Below, in pieces: positions 42,501 through 62,805 of a stretch of DNA of 64,000 nucleotides. Below the pieces are notes generated by a model. The model searched no databases. It worked only from the letters and a program-made list of their open reading frames with translations, and was not told the DNA's origin. This DNA comes from an uncultured Lachnospiraceae bacterium (GTDB lineage Bacteria; Bacillota; Clostridia; Lachnospirales; Lachnospiraceae). The stretch lies in contig CANQPM010000001.1 in NCBI GenBank assembly GCA_947625775.1, positions 124,001 to 188,000 on the forward strand. The letters are read 5' to 3'. The translations under genes and the position numbers were made by a program. The number at the start of each line of letters is the position of its first letter. Position 1 is the first letter of the stretch.

Positions 42501-44288
42501 ATGCCAACAATACCTTTATTTGCAAACTGGACATGGAAACGCAGCCTGCCGGAGCCTTTTGATAAAACCTCCGGCACGATAAGCACCACCCATTATTCCA
42601 CCTACTGCATTGTCTCCACCAAAAAGGCAACCCTGCACCCGGCATTTTTAAGTGCACTTCTGGCTTACATGGACATGGATACGACCTTAACCCCCGCCAG
42701 CACCTCCGAATGTGCCATCGGCACCCAGGATGAAAAGATCGTGGCGGAATACAAGAGCCGTACCGGGGAAACGCATGTGGTGGTATTTAACAAGAAAAAC
42801 GGGAAATTCAATGTGGGACGCTTTGATGATCCCACATCCACTTCCAAGGTGTATACGGTAAAGGAAAGCGGGAATACAGGCACAGCCCTGTTCTTTGCCC
42901 TGATACCGGAAGCAATGACCGACAGGGAGTTTGAGGAAAATTACAAGCTTCTGGGCAAGTGTAAAAATGATGGCTTTACGGATATGGATGAGGCGGAAAA
43001 AGCCGCTTTCATCCTCTGCGACAATATTTACCGCAGAATATCCTCTGCCGGCTCTGTAGGCAGTGCAGGCATCCATCTGACTTTTCCCTCCACCGGGAAC
43101 CTCCAGAATCTTACCACCCTAAACCTTCAGAAAGGCGCCTATTCCCCTAAAAGCGTGCTTTACGGCACTTTTCGGATATTGACCGCAGCCTCTTCCGCTG
43201 CTCCTTTGTCCGTCATAGACAAGAAAGACTTTGTAAATCACTTCGCTCTCTCTGAGCGCACCTTTACCCCGAAAGAAAAATTGATGATCCCCCGTATTGA
43301 GGACTGGTATATCATCCCTCCGGAAATCGAAGCAGTCTGCAGACATGCGCTGCTTACCACCTCCGGTGTCCAGCCCATGCGCAACTTTATGATGCGCGGA
43401 CCGGCAGGCACCGGAAAAACCGAGGGTGCAAAAGCCATCGCTGCGGGTCTGGGACTCCCCTATCTGTATTACACCTGCTCTGCCAACACCGAAATTTATG
43501 ACTTCTTAGGGCAGATGCTTCCGGATACCGATGGGAAAACTCCCGCCGCAAAGGAATATCCCTCTCTTATGGATATCCAGATGGACCCGGCATCCGCTTA
43601 CTGCAAGCTCACCGGAGAATACGATGAAACCGTCACGGAAGATATGGTATATGAAAAGCTTCTGGAGGTCATGGACCGGGATGCGAAAGCACTGGCGGCA
43701 GAGAACTCTTCCGGCCAGCATTTCCGCTATGTGGAAACACCCCTGATTACTGCGATCCGTAAGGGCTATCTGATTGAAATTCAGGAACCGACCGTCATCG
43801 CCAATCCGGGCGTGCTGGTAGGCCTAAATGCCCTGCTGGATCGCTGTGCGAGCATTACACTCACTACGGGAGAGGTTGTCCGCAGACATCCGGACACGGT
43901 AGTCGTGATTACCACCAACAATAATTATGCAGGCTGCCGGGACATGAACCAGTCTGTCATCTCCAGAATGAACCTCATCATCGACATGGAGGAACCGGAC
44001 GTAGACACCCTTACCGAGAGAACCATGAAGGTAACGGGCTGTACGGACCGCACTGCCGTATCCGAAATGGCGGCCGCCGTGCAGGAAATCAACGAACACT
44101 GCCGGGAGACCATGATCAACGACGGAAGCTGCGGCGTCAGGGAACTGATCAGCTGGGTGCAGTCTTACATGGTAACAGGAAGCATCCTTGATGCTGCCAG
44201 GTTTACCGTGCTGTCTTCCGTCTCCAGTGACCCCGACAACAGAGCCGACATCTATTCCACCTGTCTGGAGCAGAAATTTGCTGCATAG
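42501..44288 (+). CDS. MoxR-type AAA+ ATPase
   Basis: The 595-residue protein has an N-terminal region of about 260 residues with no clear motif. It is followed by an AAA+ domain: Walker A GPAGTGKTE at 300-308, a Walker B-like IEIQEP near 433, and sensor 1 VVVITTNNNYAGC near 465. MoxR ATPases act as chaperones together with a von Willebrand factor A partner, here the protein at 44562-46640. The pair resembles the CobS/CobT and related plasmid-borne couples. A remodelling role in DNA processing or transfer is likely but not proven. Confidence 0.82.
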   Translation: MPTIPLFANWTWKRSLPEPFDKTSGTISTTHYSTYCIVSTKKATLHPAFLSALLAYMDMDTTLTPASTSECAIGTQDEKIVAEYKSRTGETHVVVFNKKNGKFNVGRFDDPTSTSKVYTVKESGNTGTALFFALIPEAMTDREFEENYKLLGKCKNDGFTDMDEAEKAAFILCDNIYRRISSAGSVGSAGIHLTFPSTGNLQNLTTLNLQKGAYSPKSVLYGTFRILTAASSAAPLSVIDKKDFVNHFALSERTFTPKEKLMIPRIEDWYIIPPEIEAVCRHALLTTSGVQPMRNFMMRGPAGTGKTEGAKAIAAGLGLPYLYYTCSANTEIYDFLGQMLPDTDGKTPAAKEYPSLMDIQMDPASAYCKLTGEYDETVTEDMVYEKLLEVMDRDAKALAAENSSGQHFRYVETPLITAIRKGYLIEIQEPTVIANPGVLVGLNALLDRCASITLTTGEVVRRHPDTVVVITTNNNYAGCRDMNQSVISRMNLIIDMEEPDVDTLTERTMKVTGCTDRTAVSEMAAAVQEINEHCRETMINDGSCGVRELISWVQSYMVTGSILDAARFTVLSSVSSDPDNRADIYSTCLEQKFAA

Positions 44289-44298
44289 GGAGGTGCCC

Positions 44299-44565
44299 AT
44301 GTCACTGATTGATGAAGAAACCTTAAAGGCAAATTTAGCCAGAAATCTCCGGTATTTAAGAAAAAAAGAAGGCTCTGCGCTTTCTCAGGAGGCACTGGCA
44401 CGAAGAATCGGCGTCACCTGCAAAAGCATTTCCAGATATGAATCCGGTATCTGTCTGCCGCCATGCCATGTGCTGGCTGCCCTTGGCAGATATTACGGTT
44501 ACACCATGGATGAGCTGTTAGCAGCACGGCTGCCGGGCAAGAAAGGAAGGGAAAACAACGAATGA
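44299..44565 (+). CDS. Small XRE-family regulator
   Basis: The 88-residue protein is a single Cro/C1-type helix-turn-helix (LARNLRYLRKKEGSALSQEALARR, then KSISRYESGICLPPCHVLAALGRYYG). The ATG at 44299 has GGGAGGTG 5 bases upstream. It sits between the AAA ATPase and the VWA gene and overlaps the latter by 4 bases, so it is produced with them and may autoregulate the operon. Confidence 0.85.
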   Translation: MSLIDEETLKANLARNLRYLRKKEGSALSQEALARRIGVTCKSISRYESGICLPPCHVLAALGRYYGYTMDELLAARLPGKKGRENNE

Positions 44566-46640
44566 GAACATCACACACAGCAATACGCCGTCTGATTTCC
44601 AATGTAAAAAACAAACTGACGCCGGAGCAGATTTTTGCTTCCCCGCAGTTTGCCGCTTATCTGACGGACATATCAGAAGGCACCACAAAACGGTACCGCA
44701 GAAAGAGCAAGGTCATCACCTACTGGGACGATTCCGATAATGCCGACACTGCCCATACCGACAACCGCACCATCACAATCAATGCCGGGAACTTCCTGAC
44801 CAGAAGCTTCCCGACTATTCCCCTGATGGCAGACAGCCTGCTGGGGATTGTGGGGCATGAGGACGGGCATATCCTGTTTTCGGATTTTGTCATGCTGGAT
44901 ACCTTCCATCAGGCACTCTCCGGCGGGCGGTTTTATCCCCATGAGCCGGAAGATTTATCCCCGAAACAGAAAAAGAGCCTTACTTCCATTTTGGAAGCCT
45001 TTGAAGAGGAGGACAAAGCAGTCATCCATGCAGTCTCCGGCATTGCACACAATCTGGTAAACATCATGGAGGATGTCTATATTGAGGAACGGATGTGCTG
45101 CGCCTTTCCCGGCGCCATCAAAACCGGAATCCTGTTAAACAACCTGCGCTTTGCGGAGCTGATGGATACGGTTCAAGAACAGATAGACAAACACCACCAC
45201 GAAGTATTTATCCTGGTAAACCTGCTGATACAGTATGCCAAAACCGGCGATGTCAATAATCTGGGAGGCTATAAAGGACCTTACCTGGATACCCTGTACG
45301 ACTGCATCCCTTTCATAGACAATGCTGCCTATGATGACGATGCCAAAGTGCGCTTTGATGCCGCCAACCAGATCCTGCTCTATCTCTGGCCCTACATGGA
45401 AAGCTATATTGAAAAGGTCAGGGAGGATTTAAAGAACGGCACTGCGGAGGCAGAGGCTGAAATGAAAAAACAGGTTGCCGGCGGGATTCCCCTTCCCGGC
45501 GAATCCTCCAGACCTGCCCCCGGCACGGGAAAGCATAAGCATGTGCCCGGCGCAGAGGATGAGGAACGGGAGAGCCTGCAGGAGGTCTTAGACTACGAAG
45601 CGGGCAGAATCGCACTGGAAAAAACCGATGACATTGAGGATGAGGGGGCAGGCGGCGTCAGCCGGGACAACGATTTTGGAGGTTCCGGTTATGTGTCGCA
45701 GGCAGCCGCAGATATGGAACGCATTATGACGCAGATTGCCGGGGATACCGCATATATGCAGTATGATGAGGAACTGACAGAGGAACTTCAGCGTGAGGCT
45801 GATAAAATCCGTTACGGCAACGCCCATCGGGGCGTCCATGTCCATATCAACCGGATGTCCTATGTGGAACCCGCTTATATGGAGCTGTACCAGAAGGTCG
45901 CACCTCCGCTGCTGCTCATTTCCAAGCGTCTCCAGAAACAGATTGCACAGATACTTAAGGATTACCGGGACGGCGGAAAGCTGGACAACCTGCCCTTCGG
46001 CAAACGGATTAATCCCCGCAATATCTACCACAATGACGGCAAGTTTTTCTACAAGCTGAAGCTCCCGCAGGACCTTATCGGCATCGCCGTGGCTGTCTTA
46101 AATGATGAAAGCGGCTCTATGTCCTGTTCTGACCGCATTACCTATGCACGTTCTTCTTCCATTATTCTCTATGATTTCTGTAAAGGGTTGGATATTCCCA
46201 TTGCCATTTACGGACACACGGAGGAGGACGATGTGGAGCTTTATGCCTATGCGGAATTTGACTCCATTGACAACAAAGACCAGTACCGCCTGATGGATAT
46301 GAGCGCCAGATGCGGAAACCGTGACGGGGCAGCCCTGCGGTATGTGGCAGAACGCCTGATGACCAGGCCGGAGCCAATTAAGCTTTTGATCATCACTTCA
46401 GACGGGCAGCCTGCAGCCTGCGGCTATTACGGAACGGAGGCGGAAGCAGACCTGCGCGGCATAAAGCAGGAATACACCCGAAAGGGGATTAAATTCTTTG
46501 CCGCCGCTATCGGAAATGACAAGGAAAACATCCAGCGGATCTATATGGACGGTTTTCTTGACATCACTAATCTGGAAAAGCTTCCCGTCAATCTCGGCAA
46601 ACTGATTATCCAGCAGATCAAAAACAATATTGCGGCATAA
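44562..46640 (+). CDS. VWA-domain partner of the MoxR ATPase (CobT-like)
   Basis: This is a 692-residue protein. An N-terminal part of about 290 residues contains GHEDGH at 98-103, a possible metal site. An acidic middle follows (residues 300-390), then a C-terminal von Willebrand A domain with the MIDAS motif DESGSMS near residue 515 (D515-x-S-x-S) and later TSDGQPAACGYYG. The pairing with an AAA+ ATPase upstream matches MoxR-VWA or CobS-CobT chaperone couples. The start overlaps the regulator gene by 4 bases. The DNA or protein target is unknown. Confidence 0.8.
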   Translation: MRTSHTAIRRLISNVKNKLTPEQIFASPQFAAYLTDISEGTTKRYRRKSKVITYWDDSDNADTAHTDNRTITINAGNFLTRSFPTIPLMADSLLGIVGHEDGHILFSDFVMLDTFHQALSGGRFYPHEPEDLSPKQKKSLTSILEAFEEEDKAVIHAVSGIAHNLVNIMEDVYIEERMCCAFPGAIKTGILLNNLRFAELMDTVQEQIDKHHHEVFILVNLLIQYAKTGDVNNLGGYKGPYLDTLYDCIPFIDNAAYDDDAKVRFDAANQILLYLWPYMESYIEKVREDLKNGTAEAEAEMKKQVAGGIPLPGESSRPAPGTGKHKHVPGAEDEERESLQEVLDYEAGRIALEKTDDIEDEGAGGVSRDNDFGGSGYVSQAAADMERIMTQIAGDTAYMQYDEELTEELQREADKIRYGNAHRGVHVHINRMSYVEPAYMELYQKVAPPLLLISKRLQKQIAQILKDYRDGGKLDNLPFGKRINPRNIYHNDGKFFYKLKLPQDLIGIAVAVLNDESGSMSCSDRITYARSSSIILYDFCKGLDIPIAIYGHTEEDDVELYAYAEFDSIDNKDQYRLMDMSARCGNRDGAALRYVAERLMTRPEPIKLLIITSDGQPAACGYYGTEAEADLRGIKQEYTRKGIKFFAAAIGNDKENIQRIYMDGFLDITNLEKLPVNLGKLIIQQIKNNIAA

Positions 46641-55346: not shown

Positions 55347-57374
55347 ATGAATCAAAACGCAGAACACATTCGTGAGCTGGTTGACAGACTGAACGGTTAC
55401 CGGCATGAATATTACAATGAAAATAGTCCCAGTGTAAGCGATGCTGTCTATGACCATCTGTATGATGAGCTGAAGCGGCTGGAAGCAGAAACCGGCATTG
55501 TCCTCAGCAATTCCCCAACGCAGACTGTAGGATATAAGGCAGTCAGTGCGCTGGATAAGGTCAGACACCCAATCCCACTGCTATCCCTTGACAAGACCAA
55601 ACAGATCCGTGAGCTGCTCACCTTTCTGAAAAAGAAATATGCCCTGCTGATGCTGAAGCTGGACGGTCTTACCGTAAAGCTTGTCTACGAGGACGGCAGG
55701 CTCATCGAAGGCTCTACTAGAGGCGACGGAGAGGAAGGAGAAGTCATTACCCACAATGTCCCTGCCTTCCGCAATGTTCCGCTGAGCATTCCGTACAAAG
55801 AGCGTCTGATCATTACCGGGGAAGGCTTTATTCATAAGCATGACTTCGCACGTCTGAAGGATACCCTTGTCGGCAGTGACGGCAAACCCTACCGCAATGC
55901 CAGAAATCTCGCTGCAGGTTCCATCCGCAGTCTGAGTGCAGAAACCTGCAAAGAACGTGAAGTAAATTTCTTTGCTTTTAATGTACTGGAAGGGCTTGAC
56001 GAATTTACAGATCAGAAAGACAGCCGCAGCCGGAAGCTACTCGCCATAAAAGAATACGGGTTTAAAATCTGTCCTTTTATTCCGTTATCCCCGGATGTAA
56101 CAGAATCCGAACTGGAAACCCAGATCAATACTCTCGTGGAGCTTGCTGAAACAACAGACATTCCTATTGACGGCATGGTCGTCCGTTTTGACAGCCTGGC
56201 TTATTCCCGGAGTCTTGGACGTACCGGGCATCATTACAATGACGGACTGGCGTTCAAGTTTGAGGATGATACCTACGAAACCATCTTCCGCTCGATTGAA
56301 TGGCAGACAGGGCGCACCGGGGAAATCGCTCCCGTGGCGGTCTTTGACACCGTGGAGATTGACGGCTGTGACGTATCCAGAGCGAGCCTGCACAATGTAA
56401 GCTTTATCAAAAATCTGGAGCTGCATCCCGGCTGCCGCATTCTGGTATCCAAGCGTAATATGATTATTCCCCATGTAGAGGAAAATCTGGACCGAGGCAC
56501 CTATGAGAATATGCTGCCTGAAACCTGCCCCTGCTGTGGGCAGCCTGCCCGCATCTATTCCCGCACTGCAGAAGACGGACGTCTGATAGAAACCCTGCAC
56601 TGCGACAACATTAACTGCAAAAGCCGTATCCTTCAGAAATTCGTACATTTTGCAGAGAAAAAAGCAATGAACATTACCGGGCTTTCCGAAGCCACTCTCG
56701 AAAAGCTGATTGATGCAGGCTTTCTTCAGTCCTATCAGGATCTTTATCATTTGGACCGCTACCGCAGTGAGATCATTGCGCTGGAGGGCTTTGGTGAGAA
56801 ATCCTATGAACGCCTGCAGGAGTCCATCGAAAAGAGCCGGAACACCACCTTCGTCCGCTACCTTGTCGCCATGGATATTCCCATGATCGGCAGAACAGCA
56901 GGCAGGGCACTGGATAAACTGTTCCACGGCAATCTCAGAGAGCTGGAGCTTGCTGCGCTGGATTATTATGACTTTACAGCGCTGGAGGATTTTGGAGAAA
57001 CACTAAGCGGCAACATCCATGAATGGTTCCATAACTCGGACAACCTGATCATGTGGCGTACTTTACAGAAAGAATTTACCTTTGAAAATGTCTGGGATGC
57101 CAAGGCATCCGGAGAGGAGAACACTATGAACGAAACAAAGAATAACAAGTTTACAGGATGTACCATTGTTGCGACAGGAAAGCTGGAGCATTTTACCCGT
57201 GACGGCATCAACACAAAGATTGCCGAGCTGGACGCCATCGCAGGCAGCTCCGTCACCAAAAAGACGGATTACTTAATCTGCGGTGAAAAGGCCGGAAGCA
57301 AGCTTGCAAAAGCAAAGCAGCTTGGTATTCCCGTGCTGACAGAACAGCAGTTTCTGGATATGCTGTCTGCGTAA
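55347..57374 (+). CDS. ligA: NAD-dependent DNA ligase
   Basis: This 675-residue ligase seals nicks in duplex DNA using NAD+. It has the N-terminal Ia domain (HEYYNENSPSVSDAVYD), the adenylation domain with the catalytic KLDG (Lys104), an OB domain, a four-Cys zinc finger (CPCCGQP and CDNINCKS, about residues 393-428), helix-hairpin-helix repeats (ALEGFGEKSYERLQES) and a C-terminal BRCT domain (residues about 598-675). Length is close to bacterial LigA. A second copy beside the chromosomal essential ligA is inferred, as this one is on a mobile element. It suggests the element repairs or replicates its own DNA. Confidence 0.93.
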   Translation: MNQNAEHIRELVDRLNGYRHEYYNENSPSVSDAVYDHLYDELKRLEAETGIVLSNSPTQTVGYKAVSALDKVRHPIPLLSLDKTKQIRELLTFLKKKYALLMLKLDGLTVKLVYEDGRLIEGSTRGDGEEGEVITHNVPAFRNVPLSIPYKERLIITGEGFIHKHDFARLKDTLVGSDGKPYRNARNLAAGSIRSLSAETCKEREVNFFAFNVLEGLDEFTDQKDSRSRKLLAIKEYGFKICPFIPLSPDVTESELETQINTLVELAETTDIPIDGMVVRFDSLAYSRSLGRTGHHYNDGLAFKFEDDTYETIFRSIEWQTGRTGEIAPVAVFDTVEIDGCDVSRASLHNVSFIKNLELHPGCRILVSKRNMIIPHVEENLDRGTYENMLPETCPCCGQPARIYSRTAEDGRLIETLHCDNINCKSRILQKFVHFAEKKAMNITGLSEATLEKLIDAGFLQSYQDLYHLDRYRSEIIALEGFGEKSYERLQESIEKSRNTTFVRYLVAMDIPMIGRTAGRALDKLFHGNLRELELAALDYYDFTALEDFGETLSGNIHEWFHNSDNLIMWRTLQKEFTFENVWDAKASGEENTMNETKNNKFTGCTIVATGKLEHFTRDGINTKIAELDAIAGSSVTKKTDYLICGEKAGSKLAKAKQLGIPVLTEQQFLDMLSA

Positions 57375-58686: not shown

Positions 58687-58822
58687 CGTTTGCGGAAGGA
58701 TTTAAACCTTCGATGCGTTACCGCACACCACCTTAGCAGGTCGCAGGATGTCCGAGAAACATCCGCTCCGCGACGACCGAAATGGAACGGGGTGGCACCA
58801 TAAACCACTCGGACACGCAAAC
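58687..58822 (-). tRNA. tRNA-Ser(GCT), interrupted by a 51-base insert in the anticodon arm
   Basis: The gene has acceptor arms GTTTGCG (58816-58822) and CGCAAAC (58688-58694) with discriminator G, a class II variable arm (TGCG/CGCA), a T stem GAAGG/CCTTC, and an anticodon stem CCACC/GGTGG around the loop CTGCTAA. The last pairing works only if bases 58740-58790 are removed. The insert sits exactly at the 5' edge of the anticodon loop (between positions 31/32 or 32/33). Without it the tRNA is 85 bases long. The T loop reads TTTAAAT, so the normally invariant C56 is T. Either the insert is spliced out or the gene is inactive. Confidence 0.8.
58740..58790 (-). other. 51-base structured insert in tRNA-Ser
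   Basis: In the tRNA sense the insert starts CCGTTCCATTTCGGTC and continues with a bulged hairpin: GTCGC, bulge GGAGC, GGATGT, a 7-base loop, ACATCC, T, GCGAC. The insert in tRNA-Lys (59777-59828) has the same architecture in the same orientation, with CCGCTCCGCTTCGGTC and compensatory changes in both stems. Confidence 0.7.
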
Positions 58823-58828
58823 GGAAAG

Positions 58829-58911
58829 TGGATGGGGCAGGACTCGAACCTGCGCTGTTTCTTTGTGACGGATTTACAGTCCGCTGCCCTCGCCGCTAGG
58901 CATACCCATCC
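58829..58911 (-). tRNA. tRNA-Tyr(GTA)
   Basis: This is an 83-base class II tRNA with acceptor GGATGGG-type ends (58830-58836 with 58905-58911), a long variable arm and the anticodon loop with GTA (complement TAC within GATTTACAGTC). It has a normal TTCGA T loop. Intact, no insert. Confidence 0.92.
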
Positions 58912-58915
58912 ATGG

Positions 58916-58987
58916 GGTGACCAGGGGGAATCGAACCCCCATAAGCAGAACCACAATCTGCCGGATTACCATTATCCTATGGCCACA
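58916..58987 (-). tRNA. tRNA-His(GTG)
   Basis: Acceptor GTGGCCA/TGGTCAC (58980-58986 with 58917-58923), an anticodon loop TTGTGG with GTG and a GGTTCGATTCC T arm identify histidine tRNA. The extra 5' residue needed by tRNA-His can be the T or A just upstream, or be added after transcription. Confidence 0.9.
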
Positions 58988-58988
58988 G

Positions 58989-59060
58989 TAGCTCCTGTGG
59001 GACTTGAACCCGACATTTCCGGCTTGAGAGGCCGGCGTCCAGCCTTTAGACTAAGGAGCC
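58989..59060 (-). tRNA. tRNA-Glu(CTC)
   Basis: Acceptor GGCTCCT/AGGAGCT, D arm GTCTAAAGGC, anticodon loop CTCTCAA between GCCGG stems, and a GGGTTCAAGTCCC T arm. Anticodon CTC decodes GAG. Confidence 0.9.
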
Positions 59061-59064
59061 ATAA

Positions 59065-59137
59065 TGATTCCCGCGGGACTTGAACCCTGCATTTCCGGCT
59101 TGAAAGGCCGGTGTCGTAACCTTTAGACCAGGGAACC
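59065..59137 (-). tRNA. tRNA-Glu(TTC)
   Basis: Acceptor GGTTCCC/GGGAATC, anticodon loop CTTTCAA between GCCGG stems, and a GGGTTCAAGTCCC T arm. Anticodon TTC decodes GAA/GAG. It is the 5'-most member of the contiguous array on the minus strand, so the promoter should lie in 59140-59190. Confidence 0.9.
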
Positions 59138-59193
59138 TTGCTGCAGGCATTTCCTGCCTGCTATTTCCTGTTGTTTCCTTTTTTCATTTTTAT

Positions 59194-59448
59194 TCATGCG
59201 CTGATCTGTGTCTGCGCTGCCGTATCAATAACCAGTATATCATCCAGACGTACCTGCAGGACTGCTGCCAGCACCACCAGATTATCTATGGTCGGGAGAG
59301 CTGCACCCTGCTGCCACTTGTATATCGCCTGCGGAGTAGCAAATCCGAAAATGTCCTGCAGATCTCTTACAGATAACCCTGCCAGCTTCCGCAGCCTGTT
59401 TATATTCTGTCCTGTCCTTATCATATCTATAGTTGGCAAATTCACCAT
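59194..59448 (-). CDS. Small XRE-family regulator in the tRNA region
   Basis: The 84-residue protein is a Cro/C1-type helix-turn-helix (IRTGQNINRLRKLAGLSVRDLQDIFG, in two parts, then QAIYKWQQGAALPTIDNLVVLA). It lies ahead of the tRNA-Glu genes on the same strand. The ATG at 59448 has GGAGG 8 bases upstream; the in-frame GTG at 59457 touches that site and is less likely. It may regulate the tRNA array or the element's right arm. Confidence 0.82.
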   Translation of the reverse strand: MVNLPTIDMIRTGQNINRLRKLAGLSVRDLQDIFGFATPQAIYKWQQGAALPTIDNLVVLAAVLQVRLDDILVIDTAAQTQISA

Positions 59449-59651
59449 GTCTTTCACCTCCTGCTATCAAAGTGTGCTCTCGGAAACTCCCAGCCCTTAT
59501 TTTATAAGGCTTCAGAAATTTCCAAAATCACGCTTTCACCTCTATTTTTCACTTCCATTTTGTAACATTTTCCATCTTCACAAGTCATTGTCCCATGAAA
59601 AATTTCTTGTTCTTTTTATAAAAAACTATTGACAGACAGCTAAAAATGTGC

Positions 59652-59686
59652 GGCCGTTTTCGCTGATAATTCCAGCGAAAACGGCC
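59652..59686. terminator. Strong hairpin downstream of tRNA-Lys
   Basis: A perfect 14-bp stem (59652-59665 with 59673-59686, GGCCGTTTTCGCTG/CAGCGAAAACGGCC) with a 7-base loop. On the plus strand CTTTGTTTTA follows. On the minus strand it lies 78 bases past the tRNA-Lys 3' end. Confidence 0.75.
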
Positions 59687-59763
59687 CTTTGTTTTATAAG
59701 CAACTTCCCACTTTCACCGATAAAACAAAGGAGGACACTCAAAATTCAATATTCAGGCGGTAA

Positions 59764-59908
59764 TGCCCCATGTGGGGTGCTGTGGTCCGGTGGACCACGT
59801 CTCAGCACCGACCGAAGCGGAGCGGAGACCTTGAACCCATGACCCCTCGATTAAAAGTCAAGGATGTTCTTTATCCTTTGTGCTCATGCCAGCTGAGCTA
59901 ATGGAGCA
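59764..59908 (-). tRNA. tRNA-Lys(TTT), interrupted by two inserts
   Basis: Acceptor GCTCCAT (59901-59907) pairs with ATGGGGC (59765-59771), with discriminator A. The D arm is GCTC-AGCTGGCAT-GAGC and the anticodon arm CTTGA-CTTTTAA-TCGAG gives TTT. The T arm ATGGG...CCCAC has its loop opened after TTCAA by about 52 bases (59777-59828). A further 18 bases (59863-59880) separate the D and anticodon arms at position 26/27. Removing both leaves a tRNA of about 75 bases. It could be a pseudogene or be processed like the tRNA-Ser copy. Confidence 0.65.
59777..59828 (-). other. About 52-base structured insert in the T loop of tRNA-Lys
   Basis: In the tRNA sense it reads CCGCTCCGCTTCGGTC, then GGTGCT, bulge GAGAC, GTGGTCC, loop ACC, GGACCAC, AGCACC. 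It is homologous in layout to the insert of tRNA-Ser. Exact borders are uncertain by one or two bases. Confidence 0.65.
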
Positions 59909-61386: not shown

Positions 61387-61765
61387 GGCACTCCTCCTTT
61401 TCTTCAAACCCTGTCAGGCTGATTTCATTTTCCTGTATCACAAGGGCATAGACCGGAATCCGAAGCTCCTTTGCCCTCCGGATTTCACCAAGCATTCCCC
61501 TGCTGATCCTGCTTCCGCACACCACCATTGCCTTGCTGAGTTCCAGAACGGACAGACCAAACTGCAGCCCGATTTCCCGTTCCTCTGGGATGTTGTCATC
61601 CAGGTACTCCGGCAGGAAGCTGTGCGGTGCGATTGCCCTGCAGCGAAACTGGCTGGCAACCATTTTTACATAAAAGCGGGCAAGGGACATATTTTCCCTG
61701 ATCTGCGCTTTTGTAGGCGCCGACAATGGCGAACAGATATATACCAGTTCCTTCTCTTCTATCAT
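61376..61765 (-). CDS. DUF4406/nucleoside deoxyribosyltransferase-like protein
   Basis: The 129-residue protein (LVYICSPLSAPTKAQIRENM; AIAPHSFLPEYLDD; GLSVLELSKAMVVCGSRISRGM) has the fold of nucleoside 2-deoxyribosyltransferase-like proteins (DUF4406 group) found in phages and plasmids. YICSPLS is the nucleotide-site motif. It may salvage or modify nucleotides. Start and stop overlap the neighbours by one and 11 bases, so it is in an operon with the exonuclease. Confidence 0.75.
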   Translation of the reverse strand: MIEEKELVYICSPLSAPTKAQIRENMSLARFYVKMVASQFRCRAIAPHSFLPEYLDDNIPEEREIGLQFGLSVLELSKAMVVCGSRISRGMLGEIRRAKELRIPVYALVIQENEISLTGFEEKEECHDM

Positions 61766-62805
61766 TAAGCCGCCTCCTTTTTCTTTACCGAAAAACGTCT
61801 GCTCTCGCTGACACTCACATAATCGTCATAAACATCCGGATGATTGATTTTCAGCTTTTCCAGTCCTTTTTTGTCAATCCCGGTGCGGTACATAGGGTTA
61901 TAAGTCACTTCGTACTCGCTGGTCCCTGTTTTCAGGACACCCCGGCAGCTGACGCCCAACTCCTCTACCACGCCTGCATAACTGGATTTCATCTGTTCCT
62001 CCAGCTTTTTTATCTGCGCTTCCAGAGCGGACTTTTCCGCCTTTCTTGCCAGATACTCCTCAAGATTTTTGGCAAGGGTGCGGCTGAGCTTTACCGAATC
62101 TGCGTCCTTATCGGCAGGCCCGTAATGCTTCCGGATGCTTTCCAGCACAAGGTCCGGTTTTTCCGTATAGGGAGGCTCTGCTTTTTTCAGGACATGCTCC
62201 GTCCAGAAATATTCCTCCTCCGCAATCAGATCTTCCTCAATATCCATGTCCCTTTCCATGTGGCGTATGAAAAACTCATCCTCGTTGTTCCCATACAGGC
62301 AGGCAAAATACACCTCATTCAGGTTCATCACTGCCATATAGTGACGCCCCTGGTACTCATAATTGACCGGGGTTGTGTCATTCTTCCACTTGTCCTGACA
62401 GTTATAATTGGTGGTCTTGCATTCCAAGATGCCGTAATGCCCGTCCGGGAACTCAATAAAAAAGTCCACGTCCGCAAGCATGAACGGATACAGCGGATGG
62501 CGGAACATCTTGCGGATAGGGAAAACCTTCAGACCGGTCTTTTGGGAAAAAATCTCTGCTACCAGATCCTCCAGCCTGTGCCCTACTTCCTTTGCCACCC
62601 AGTTGCCTTCTTCTTCATCCATGGCAGGCTGTAAGCCAATCTTGTCATAATATAAGTCCCGCTTTGTACAGAATGGGGAAAAGCCCATGATTGCCGCGCA
62701 GTCACTGCCTCCGATTCCCTGTTTCCTGTAATCGAGCCACTGCTCCCTTGTCAGCCCGTCTGTCTCCACCAGCACTTCCGCTTCATAATTCAAATTTAAA
62801 CCCAT
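61765..62805 (-). CDS. YqaJ-type exonuclease (viral recombinase family)
   Basis: This 346-residue protein has the lambda-exonuclease-like core: GIGGSDCAAIMGFSPFCTKRDLYYDK near residue 31, EVGHRLEDLVAE near 72, and the catalytic Asp and Glu-x-Lys in MLADVDFFIEF and GILECKTTNY (about residues 112-132). The C-terminal part is a coiled coil. YqaJ proteins produce single-stranded ends for annealing in recombination. Neighbouring SSB and ligase on the element fit a self-contained recombination set. It has a GGAAGGA site. Confidence 0.9.
   Translation of the reverse strand: MGLNLNYEAEVLVETDGLTREQWLDYRKQGIGGSDCAAIMGFSPFCTKRDLYYDKIGLQPAMDEEEGNWVAKEVGHRLEDLVAEIFSQKTGLKVFPIRKMFRHPLYPFMLADVDFFIEFPDGHYGILECKTTNYNCQDKWKNDTTPVNYEYQGRHYMAVMNLNEVYFACLYGNNEDEFFIRHMERDMDIEEDLIAEEEYFWTEHVLKKAEPPYTEKPDLVLESIRKHYGPADKDADSVKLSRTLAKNLEEYLARKAEKSALEAQIKKLEEQMKSSYAGVVEELGVSCRGVLKTGTSEYEVTYNPMYRTGIDKKGLEKLKINHPDVYDDYVSVSESRRFSVKKKEAA

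Follow-up and report, generated by a model that had tools for sequence, protein, structure and literature searches.

Results

Two interrupted tRNA genes in one array

The window (the whole 64,000-nucleotide stretch of DNA analysed here) contains a tRNA array on the reverse strand in which two genes, tRNA-Ser(GCT) and tRNA-Lys(TTT), carry inserts of one family (Table 1). When ARAGORN and Rfam were applied to this array, only Tyr, His, Glu and Glu were reported, and the interrupted Ser and Lys genes were missed. The region around the array looks mobile, with an AAA ATPase and a CobT-like VWA protein, an NAD-dependent DNA ligase and a YqaJ-type recombinase.

Table 1. Coordinates of the array and surrounding features in the window
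Feature	Position	Strand	Remark
tRNA-Ser(GCT), interrupted in anticodon arm	58687..58822	-	
Insert copy 1, in tRNA-Ser(GCT), 51 nt	58740..58790	-	model match 58740-58793, 56 bits
tRNA-Tyr, His, Glu(CTC), Glu(TTC), intact array neighbours	58828..59137	-	
HTH gene, 84 aa, tRNA-Lys to tRNA-Glu interval	59194..59448	-	homologues adjoin RtcB in other genomes
tRNA-Lys(TTT), interrupted in T loop	59764..59907	-	
Insert copy 2, in tRNA-Lys(TTT), 52 nt	59778..59829	-	model match 59776-59830, 72 bits
Small hairpin AAGGAT-AAAGAAC-ATCCTT in tRNA-Lys, 19 nt	59860..59878	-	unrelated to insert
Genes of the mobile-looking region	42501-46640, 55347-57374; 61765-62805	+; -	

The insert positions given by the original prediction proved accurate. 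The 51 nt in tRNA-Ser lie at the 5' edge of the anticodon loop, flanked by CCACC and CTGCTAA, and the 52 nt in tRNA-Lys follow TTCAAG and separate T-loop positions 59 and 60. The accompanying claim that removal of the inserts restores good cloverleaves failed for tRNA-Lys, because the separate 19-nt hairpin, located between the D arm and the anticodon stem, remains in this gene. The same hairpin was detected in G016, G023, L272 and L299, and it has been gained or lost between the close relatives G016 and G010. The T loop of tRNA-Ser reads TTTAAAT, and its altered C56 is a sign of decay of the gene.

Homologous arrays provided natural empty sites. Among eight relatives, picked because ARAGORN called a tRNA at the corresponding place, the Ser insert was absent in all eight and the Lys insert in seven, G022 being the one that carries it. 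Plasmid and phage records matched at most 28% of the window array. A phage origin of the inserts was also considered and rejected: a 17-mer occurred in 59 IMG/VR stretches, but the best covariance-model E value was 0.031, so we attribute these occurrences to chance.

A bulged hairpin nearly devoid of G-U pairs

A covariance model of the insert family was built from 12 copies. The covariation noticed between the stems of the two window inserts held in this set, with 93.5% of cells paired and at most 44.5% in slid controls. Among 119 distinct copies, 97.9% of cells were paired (80.3% after shuffling) and 260 cells were doubly changed, compared with 75 after shuffling and at most 26 in slid controls; additional covarying pairs were found in the 5' arm (two) and the lower stem (one). 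A reading of the bulge as 4 nt on top of a 6-bp lower stem fits better than the five bases originally described. The element is a unit of about 51-56 bp, composed of a bulged two-part hairpin, a GGTC tetranucleotide at its 5' foot and a 5' arm with three CTNCG-like motifs. GGTC was present in 118 of the 119 distinct copies, 80 of which came from loci fetched by a pattern that itself fixes part of the 5' arm and the foot. It was also present in all 43 distinct copies from loci not fetched by pattern (4 of these belong to both sets), the model itself favouring GGTC.

G-U pairs accounted for 12 of 1831 pairs (0.7%) in the insert stems, as aligned to the covariance model, which leans towards pairing, and for 5 of 674 in the 43 non-pattern copies. 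The corresponding counts in 296 distinct tRNAs from the same loci were 177 of 1941 (9.1%) for acceptor stems and 67 of 1463 (4.6%) for anticodon stems. A G-U pair is tolerated by an RNA helix, not by a DNA hairpin, and its near-absence points to a structure that may act as single-stranded DNA. In addition, the 5' arm has GCGRAGC as its complement; the DNA mini-hairpin of d(GCGAAGC) is known for its exceptional stability.

Distribution of the repeat

Covariance-model searches detected the repeat in 116 of 250 Lachnospiraceae genomes, in 10 of 38 genomes of the same genus and in 5 of 398 phylum-wide genomes, four of these five belonging to the same family and one lying outside it. In the source genome only the two window copies reached significant model scores; some other genomes contained at least 22, so that a short palindrome occurs in many copies per genome, as is characteristic of REP elements. 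G266 had 20 matches, and the eight loci read (L142-L149) all carried the module within one repeat of about 130 bp with 95-98% identity, a sign of recent spread.

No match was obtained over either window insert among 4227 Rfam families up to E 10, and a literature search on such bacterial tRNA inserts gave no description among the papers listed. Linkage to a Y1 transposase was tried and rejected: no repeat module lay near the transposase gene in the 30 loci examined of 52 Y1 matches. A PF01797 (Y1 transposase) match was absent in 10 of the 28 genomes with seven or more copies; one of these ten, G306, consists of one contig and is listed at 100% completeness. Both results count against the DNA-element reading.

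Insertion sites in tRNA genes

Scanning of species genomes for a T arm together with the insert yielded 68 stretches with 70 sites, whose hosts were mostly Lachnospiraceae, with a few other or vaguer names. Removal of the insert gave a complete tRNA at 25 of the 70 T-loop sites. Two of the 25 (L272 and L299) were first assigned the wrong isotype because of the extra 19-nt hairpin, and both were identified as tRNA-Lys by reading. Pairing after removal was assessed for 27 items. Seven of seven acceptor pairs and four or five of five T-stem pairs were found in 24, all with 51, 53 or 54 nt inserted at the 59/60 step; the pairing script placed the remaining three (L246, L247 and L251) poorly.

T-loop inserts were observed in tRNAs with 13 anticodons: Ala(TGC), Arg(TCT), Arg(ACG), Asn(GTT), Glu(TTC), Glu(CTC), His(GTG), Leu(CAA), Lys(TTT), Pro(TGG), Ser(GCT), Ser(CGA) and Tyr(GTA). 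In 12 of them the insertion was exactly at 59/60. The Arg(ACG) insertion was read by eye and has a junction two bases shorter, and Pro(TGG) is the least certain anticodon, since ARAGORN also calls a Pro tRNA with the insert in place. Different tRNAs carry the insert from one homologous island to another. In one array (L242), five of six tRNAs were affected, namely Ser (in the anticodon loop), His (in the T loop, antisense), Glu(CTC), Glu(TTC) and Lys, and Tyr alone was spared. The Ser insert of the window seems to recur in L242 and, in decayed form, in L304.

The shared orientation of the inserts relative to their tRNAs, a feature of the original prediction, applies to the two window copies but not to the family. 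An antisense insert in the T loop of tRNA-His was common to L242, L272, L291, L295 and L304, and was also present in the otherwise disrupted tRNA of L299. The tRNA-His genes with this insert lack T54 and T55, and its removal did not regain a canonical tRNA. An antisense insert at the D/anticodon junction of tRNA-Tyr was found in L254, L299 and L247; one to three target bases are lost, the number varying with how many terminal bases are counted as insert. Inspection by eye placed the copies in L114, L117 and L137 in antisense orientation within remnants of tRNA 3' ends. A tRNA intron would be expected in the sense orientation only; here both orientations occur. The antisense copies, the lost bases, the multiply hit array and the decayed tRNA-Ser fit an insertion of DNA that takes no account of splicing. 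Sense T-loop insertion in whole tRNAs is nevertheless much commoner than antisense (13 anticodons versus 1), a bias that would not be expected from a plain DNA element alone and that counts against it.

Copies outside whole tRNA genes

In 42 of the 68 stretches no interrupted whole tRNA was present (L247 and L303 were counted by eye as interrupted). Within the 700 bp searched upstream, these 42 had tRNA-Gly(GCC) in 18 cases, Gly(CCC) in 2, Leu in 13, Lys in 1 and none called in 8. By reading, the insert in 37 of the 42 occupied a displaced half of a T arm that continues into a tRNA 3' end, in many cases after a terminator-like run. An earlier script applied to other loci obtained a tRNA on insert removal for 10 of 128 pattern matches, most copies having been matched twice. 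Other copies were located within repeats of 121-238 bp.

Several additional contexts were recorded. At L155 (2019-2074) and L136 a copy adjoins a fragment of a group II intron reverse-transcriptase gene. Seven loci from several genera (L095, L096, L116, L122, L123, L124 and L129) shared a leader-like context, TTTTATTTTGTGTTATACTGTTTTATA or similar followed by CTTATCAGAGTTCGTAAAC, and these copies are perhaps kept for a role. Tandem copies were present in L275/L118, L109 and L274/L089; the repeated unit in L118 and L109 consists of tRNA 3' end, T-arm half and insert (with a terminator in L109), and L089 has two inserts head to tail. The idea that copies generally sit in hairpin loops was rejected: for 49 copies the mean stem score was 4.93, where swapped flanks scored 4.76 and shifted junctions 4.6-6.0. 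This outcome, too, counts against the DNA-element reading.

Conservation, RtcB and tRNA redundancy

Interrupted tRNAs and their inserts were better conserved than their flanks, an observation that counts against the DNA-element reading. Between L242 and L243, differences were found at 4 of 124 positions of the shared Glu(CTC) gene with its insert, at 51 of 255 in the neighbouring HTH gene and at 19 of 51 in the spacer. In pairwise comparison of seven islands with the Lys insert (the window row, out of register by one base, was left out), the tRNA 3' part showed 0 of 13 differences in every pair, the segment from anticodon stem to T loop 0-7 of 33 and the insert 0-10 of 51; the 300 bases downstream differed by 3-22%. 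The antisense His insert was conserved as well (0-3 of 56 differences where lengths agree). Conservation alone therefore does not show splicing, and its use as proof of tRNA function is weakened.

Two Oribacterium genomes and G864, three in all, have the tRNA-splicing ligase RtcB next to interrupted tRNAs. The gene order in Oribacterium sp. WCC10 runs from an interrupted tRNA-Lys through RtcB, the HTH gene and an interrupted tRNA-Arg to a tRNA-Tyr-like sequence and tRNA-Ser. The RtcB-linked HTH gene was located within 1.5 kb of 19 of the 26 loci with an interrupted whole tRNA, mostly of one island lineage, versus 0 of the 42 others; RtcB itself lay within this distance of 3 of the 26. An RtcB match was found in 19 of 28 genomes with interrupted tRNAs and not in the other 9. 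Across 250 genomes no association between RtcB and the repeat was detected (37 of 116 versus 34 of 134, p = 0.26, assuming that the two surveys drew the same 250 genomes), and a general need of the repeat for RtcB was rejected on this basis. Separately, in the source genome (L394; G000:C5 near 97053-98144), an RtcB gene is flanked on either side by tRNA-like RNA sequences, and a protein downstream of it reads by eye as TROVE/Ro60-like; this locus looks like a Y-RNA and RtcB operon.

Nine host genomes were searched for a second tRNA of the interrupted isotype. Three had an intact one, and in another the second copy is cut off by a contig end. G864 has an intact Glu(TTC) besides the interrupted one, Sarcina has a 99% identical intact copy of Arg(TCT), and Leu(CAA) is followed by an intact copy in L268 and by the copy at the contig end in L298. 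The nine hosts also included those with interrupted Ala (G863), Pro (G865), Ser (G867) and Lys (G870, G871), and the result covers the first four. With an intact or second isotype copy in all four resolved hosts, the argument that splicing is needed for a sole tRNA copy was rejected.

Discussion

We conclude that the inserts probably represent a new REP-like DNA hairpin element that is nearly confined to one bacterial family and strongly favours tRNA T loops, a reading to which we assign a probability of about 0.6. The idea of a mobile, structured, tRNA-targeted element, as initially proposed, is upheld by a family-wide repeat, its occurrence in the T loop of 13 anticodons and the empty sites. 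Its more specific form, a small tRNA intron or mobile RNA, is no longer the best reading in view of G-U avoidance, antisense inserts, lost target bases, second isotype copies in four hosts and the many copies outside intact tRNAs. A mobile piece of DNA rather than a self-removing intron is most likely; we shifted to this view because G-U pairs are nearly absent, because antisense inserts remove target bases and because five of six tRNAs are interrupted in a single array.

In mechanistic terms, the inserts would be copies of a non-coding mobile DNA repeat acting as a folded single DNA strand. They lie in tRNA genes on either strand, most often exactly at T-loop step 59/60, with one to three target bases missing or changed at some sites. 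The folded strand may be handled in trans by an enzyme working in the way of HUH or RAYT proteins. T-arm DNA could be the favoured target because its sequence is universal and able to fold, and the redundancy of the tRNAs encoded in the arrays may allow copies to persist there.

A bacterial tRNA intron, in which the insert is cut from the precursor and the halves are sealed with RtcB as the natural ligase, would account for the 59/60 position in 12 of 13 anticodons and the seven of seven acceptor pairs regained in 24 of 27 items, as well as for RtcB next to interrupted tRNAs in three genomes, the HTH gene at 19 of 26 interrupted loci versus 0 of 42 (mostly one lineage) and the conservation of Glu(CTC) with its insert. 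Against these observations stand the antisense inserts with their lost T-loop bases, the 9 of 28 genomes with interrupted tRNAs but without an RtcB match, the lack of association across 250 genomes, the intact or second isotype copies in four resolved hosts and ten predicted folds in which no bulge-helix-bulge was seen by eye. The intron reading is further disfavoured because pairing in the stems avoids G-U, as that of a DNA hairpin would. Judged from the sequences, splicing appears unlikely; among the three alternatives, an intron is rated likeliest by a narrow margin. A mixed version would have tiny introns at T-loop 59/60 that spread as DNA hairpins, are excised as RNA and are sealed by an island-borne RtcB, the antisense and anticodon-loop copies being mis-insertions that kill the tRNA; we regard this, too, as improbable.

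Residues 59 and 60 of tRNA bulge out of the T loop, and a retained insert might for this reason be tolerated in the mature molecule, forming an additional arm at its elbow. Insertion exactly at 59/60, the retention of T-loop bases 54-58 and the conserved tRNA bodies would suit such a tolerated arm. It leaves the antisense and anticodon-loop inserts and the avoidance of G-U unexplained, sits poorly with an array in which five of six tRNAs are interrupted, and is improbable to a similar degree. Least probable is that the repeat is an attachment-site remnant, i.e., the end of small elements integrating at tRNA 3' ends via a site-specific recombinase: the 42 of 68 stretches without an interrupted whole tRNA, the displaced tRNA 3' end after the insert in 37 of them (by reading) and a tRNA-Gly, Leu or Lys within 700 bp upstream in 34 speak for it, but arrays hold the bare insert in whole tRNAs, and the piece from upstream tRNA to insert, mostly 60-100 bp, is too short for an integrase and varies from locus to locus.

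The REP-like DNA element thus favoured interrupts many tRNAs that its presence hides from a standard gene finder, and it fills tRNA islands linked to RtcB. It offers a clean system for studying the movement of orphan palindromic repeats and for finding out whether tRNA is spliced with RtcB in any bacterium. The G-U count may also serve as a cheap test for telling DNA hairpins from RNA hairpins.

Comparison with known systems

Parts of the REP literature describe a tetranucleotide 5' of the hairpin foot and action on single strands (PMC8266576, PMC6006769), an E. coli REP enzyme that needs the hairpin bulge (PMC8266576) and CGTC-class REPs with no linked transposase (PMC3733652). Like the elements so described, the inserts are short, palindromic and multi-copy, with a bulged hairpin, a tetranucleotide at the 5' foot and no linked transposase. 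They differ in the foot, which is GGTC in 118 of 119 copies instead of an unpaired GTAG or CGTC, in an added 20-nt 5' arm of CTNCG motifs, in their siting in tRNA T loops and in their host family, Lachnospiraceae. A cognate RAYT flanked by copies was not seen, with 0 modules in the 30 Y1 loci examined of 52. The main text of PMC3733652 contains 0 occurrences of 'ggtc', 'clostridi' and 'firmicutes'. Because of the GGTC tag and because no RAYT was found, we call the element REP-like and do not file it as a REP.

The ends of IS200/IS605 elements and their MITE-like derivatives also have a guide tetranucleotide 5' of a hairpin, and they transpose strand-specifically as single strands (PMC8266576). 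The inserts differ in having one bulged hairpin, no TnpA nearby as judged from the 30 Y1 loci examined of 52 and no fixed target tetranucleotide visible in their flanks.

Archaeal and red-algal tRNA introns, which depend on a splicing endonuclease, are similarly short and occur in many isotypes at non-canonical sites; the inserts differ by their bacterial host, the lack of a visible bulge-helix-bulge in ten predicted folds and their antisense copies. Archaeal tRNA introns at 59/60 exist. A T-arm intron is reported for Cyanidioschyzon (PMC9602550).

Theta (HDV-like) ribozymes of gut phages are described as lying downstream of tRNAs (PMC10879173) and are likewise structured elements at gut tRNA genes; the inserts lie inside tRNAs instead and gave no HDV-type Rfam match up to E 10. 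Group I introns also interrupt bacterial tRNA genes, and PMC4033280 presents them as the tRNA introns of bacteria, mostly at 37/38 and with a core of roughly 100 nt. The inserts are half that length, and no group I or II intron core was matched over them among 4227 Rfam families up to E 10. The same source portrays the tRNA genes of bacteria as uniform apart, in the main, from self-splicing introns (PMC4033280); to this picture the present data add a REP-like DNA element that occupies the T loop of 13 anticodons, in 12 of them at a single nucleotide step.
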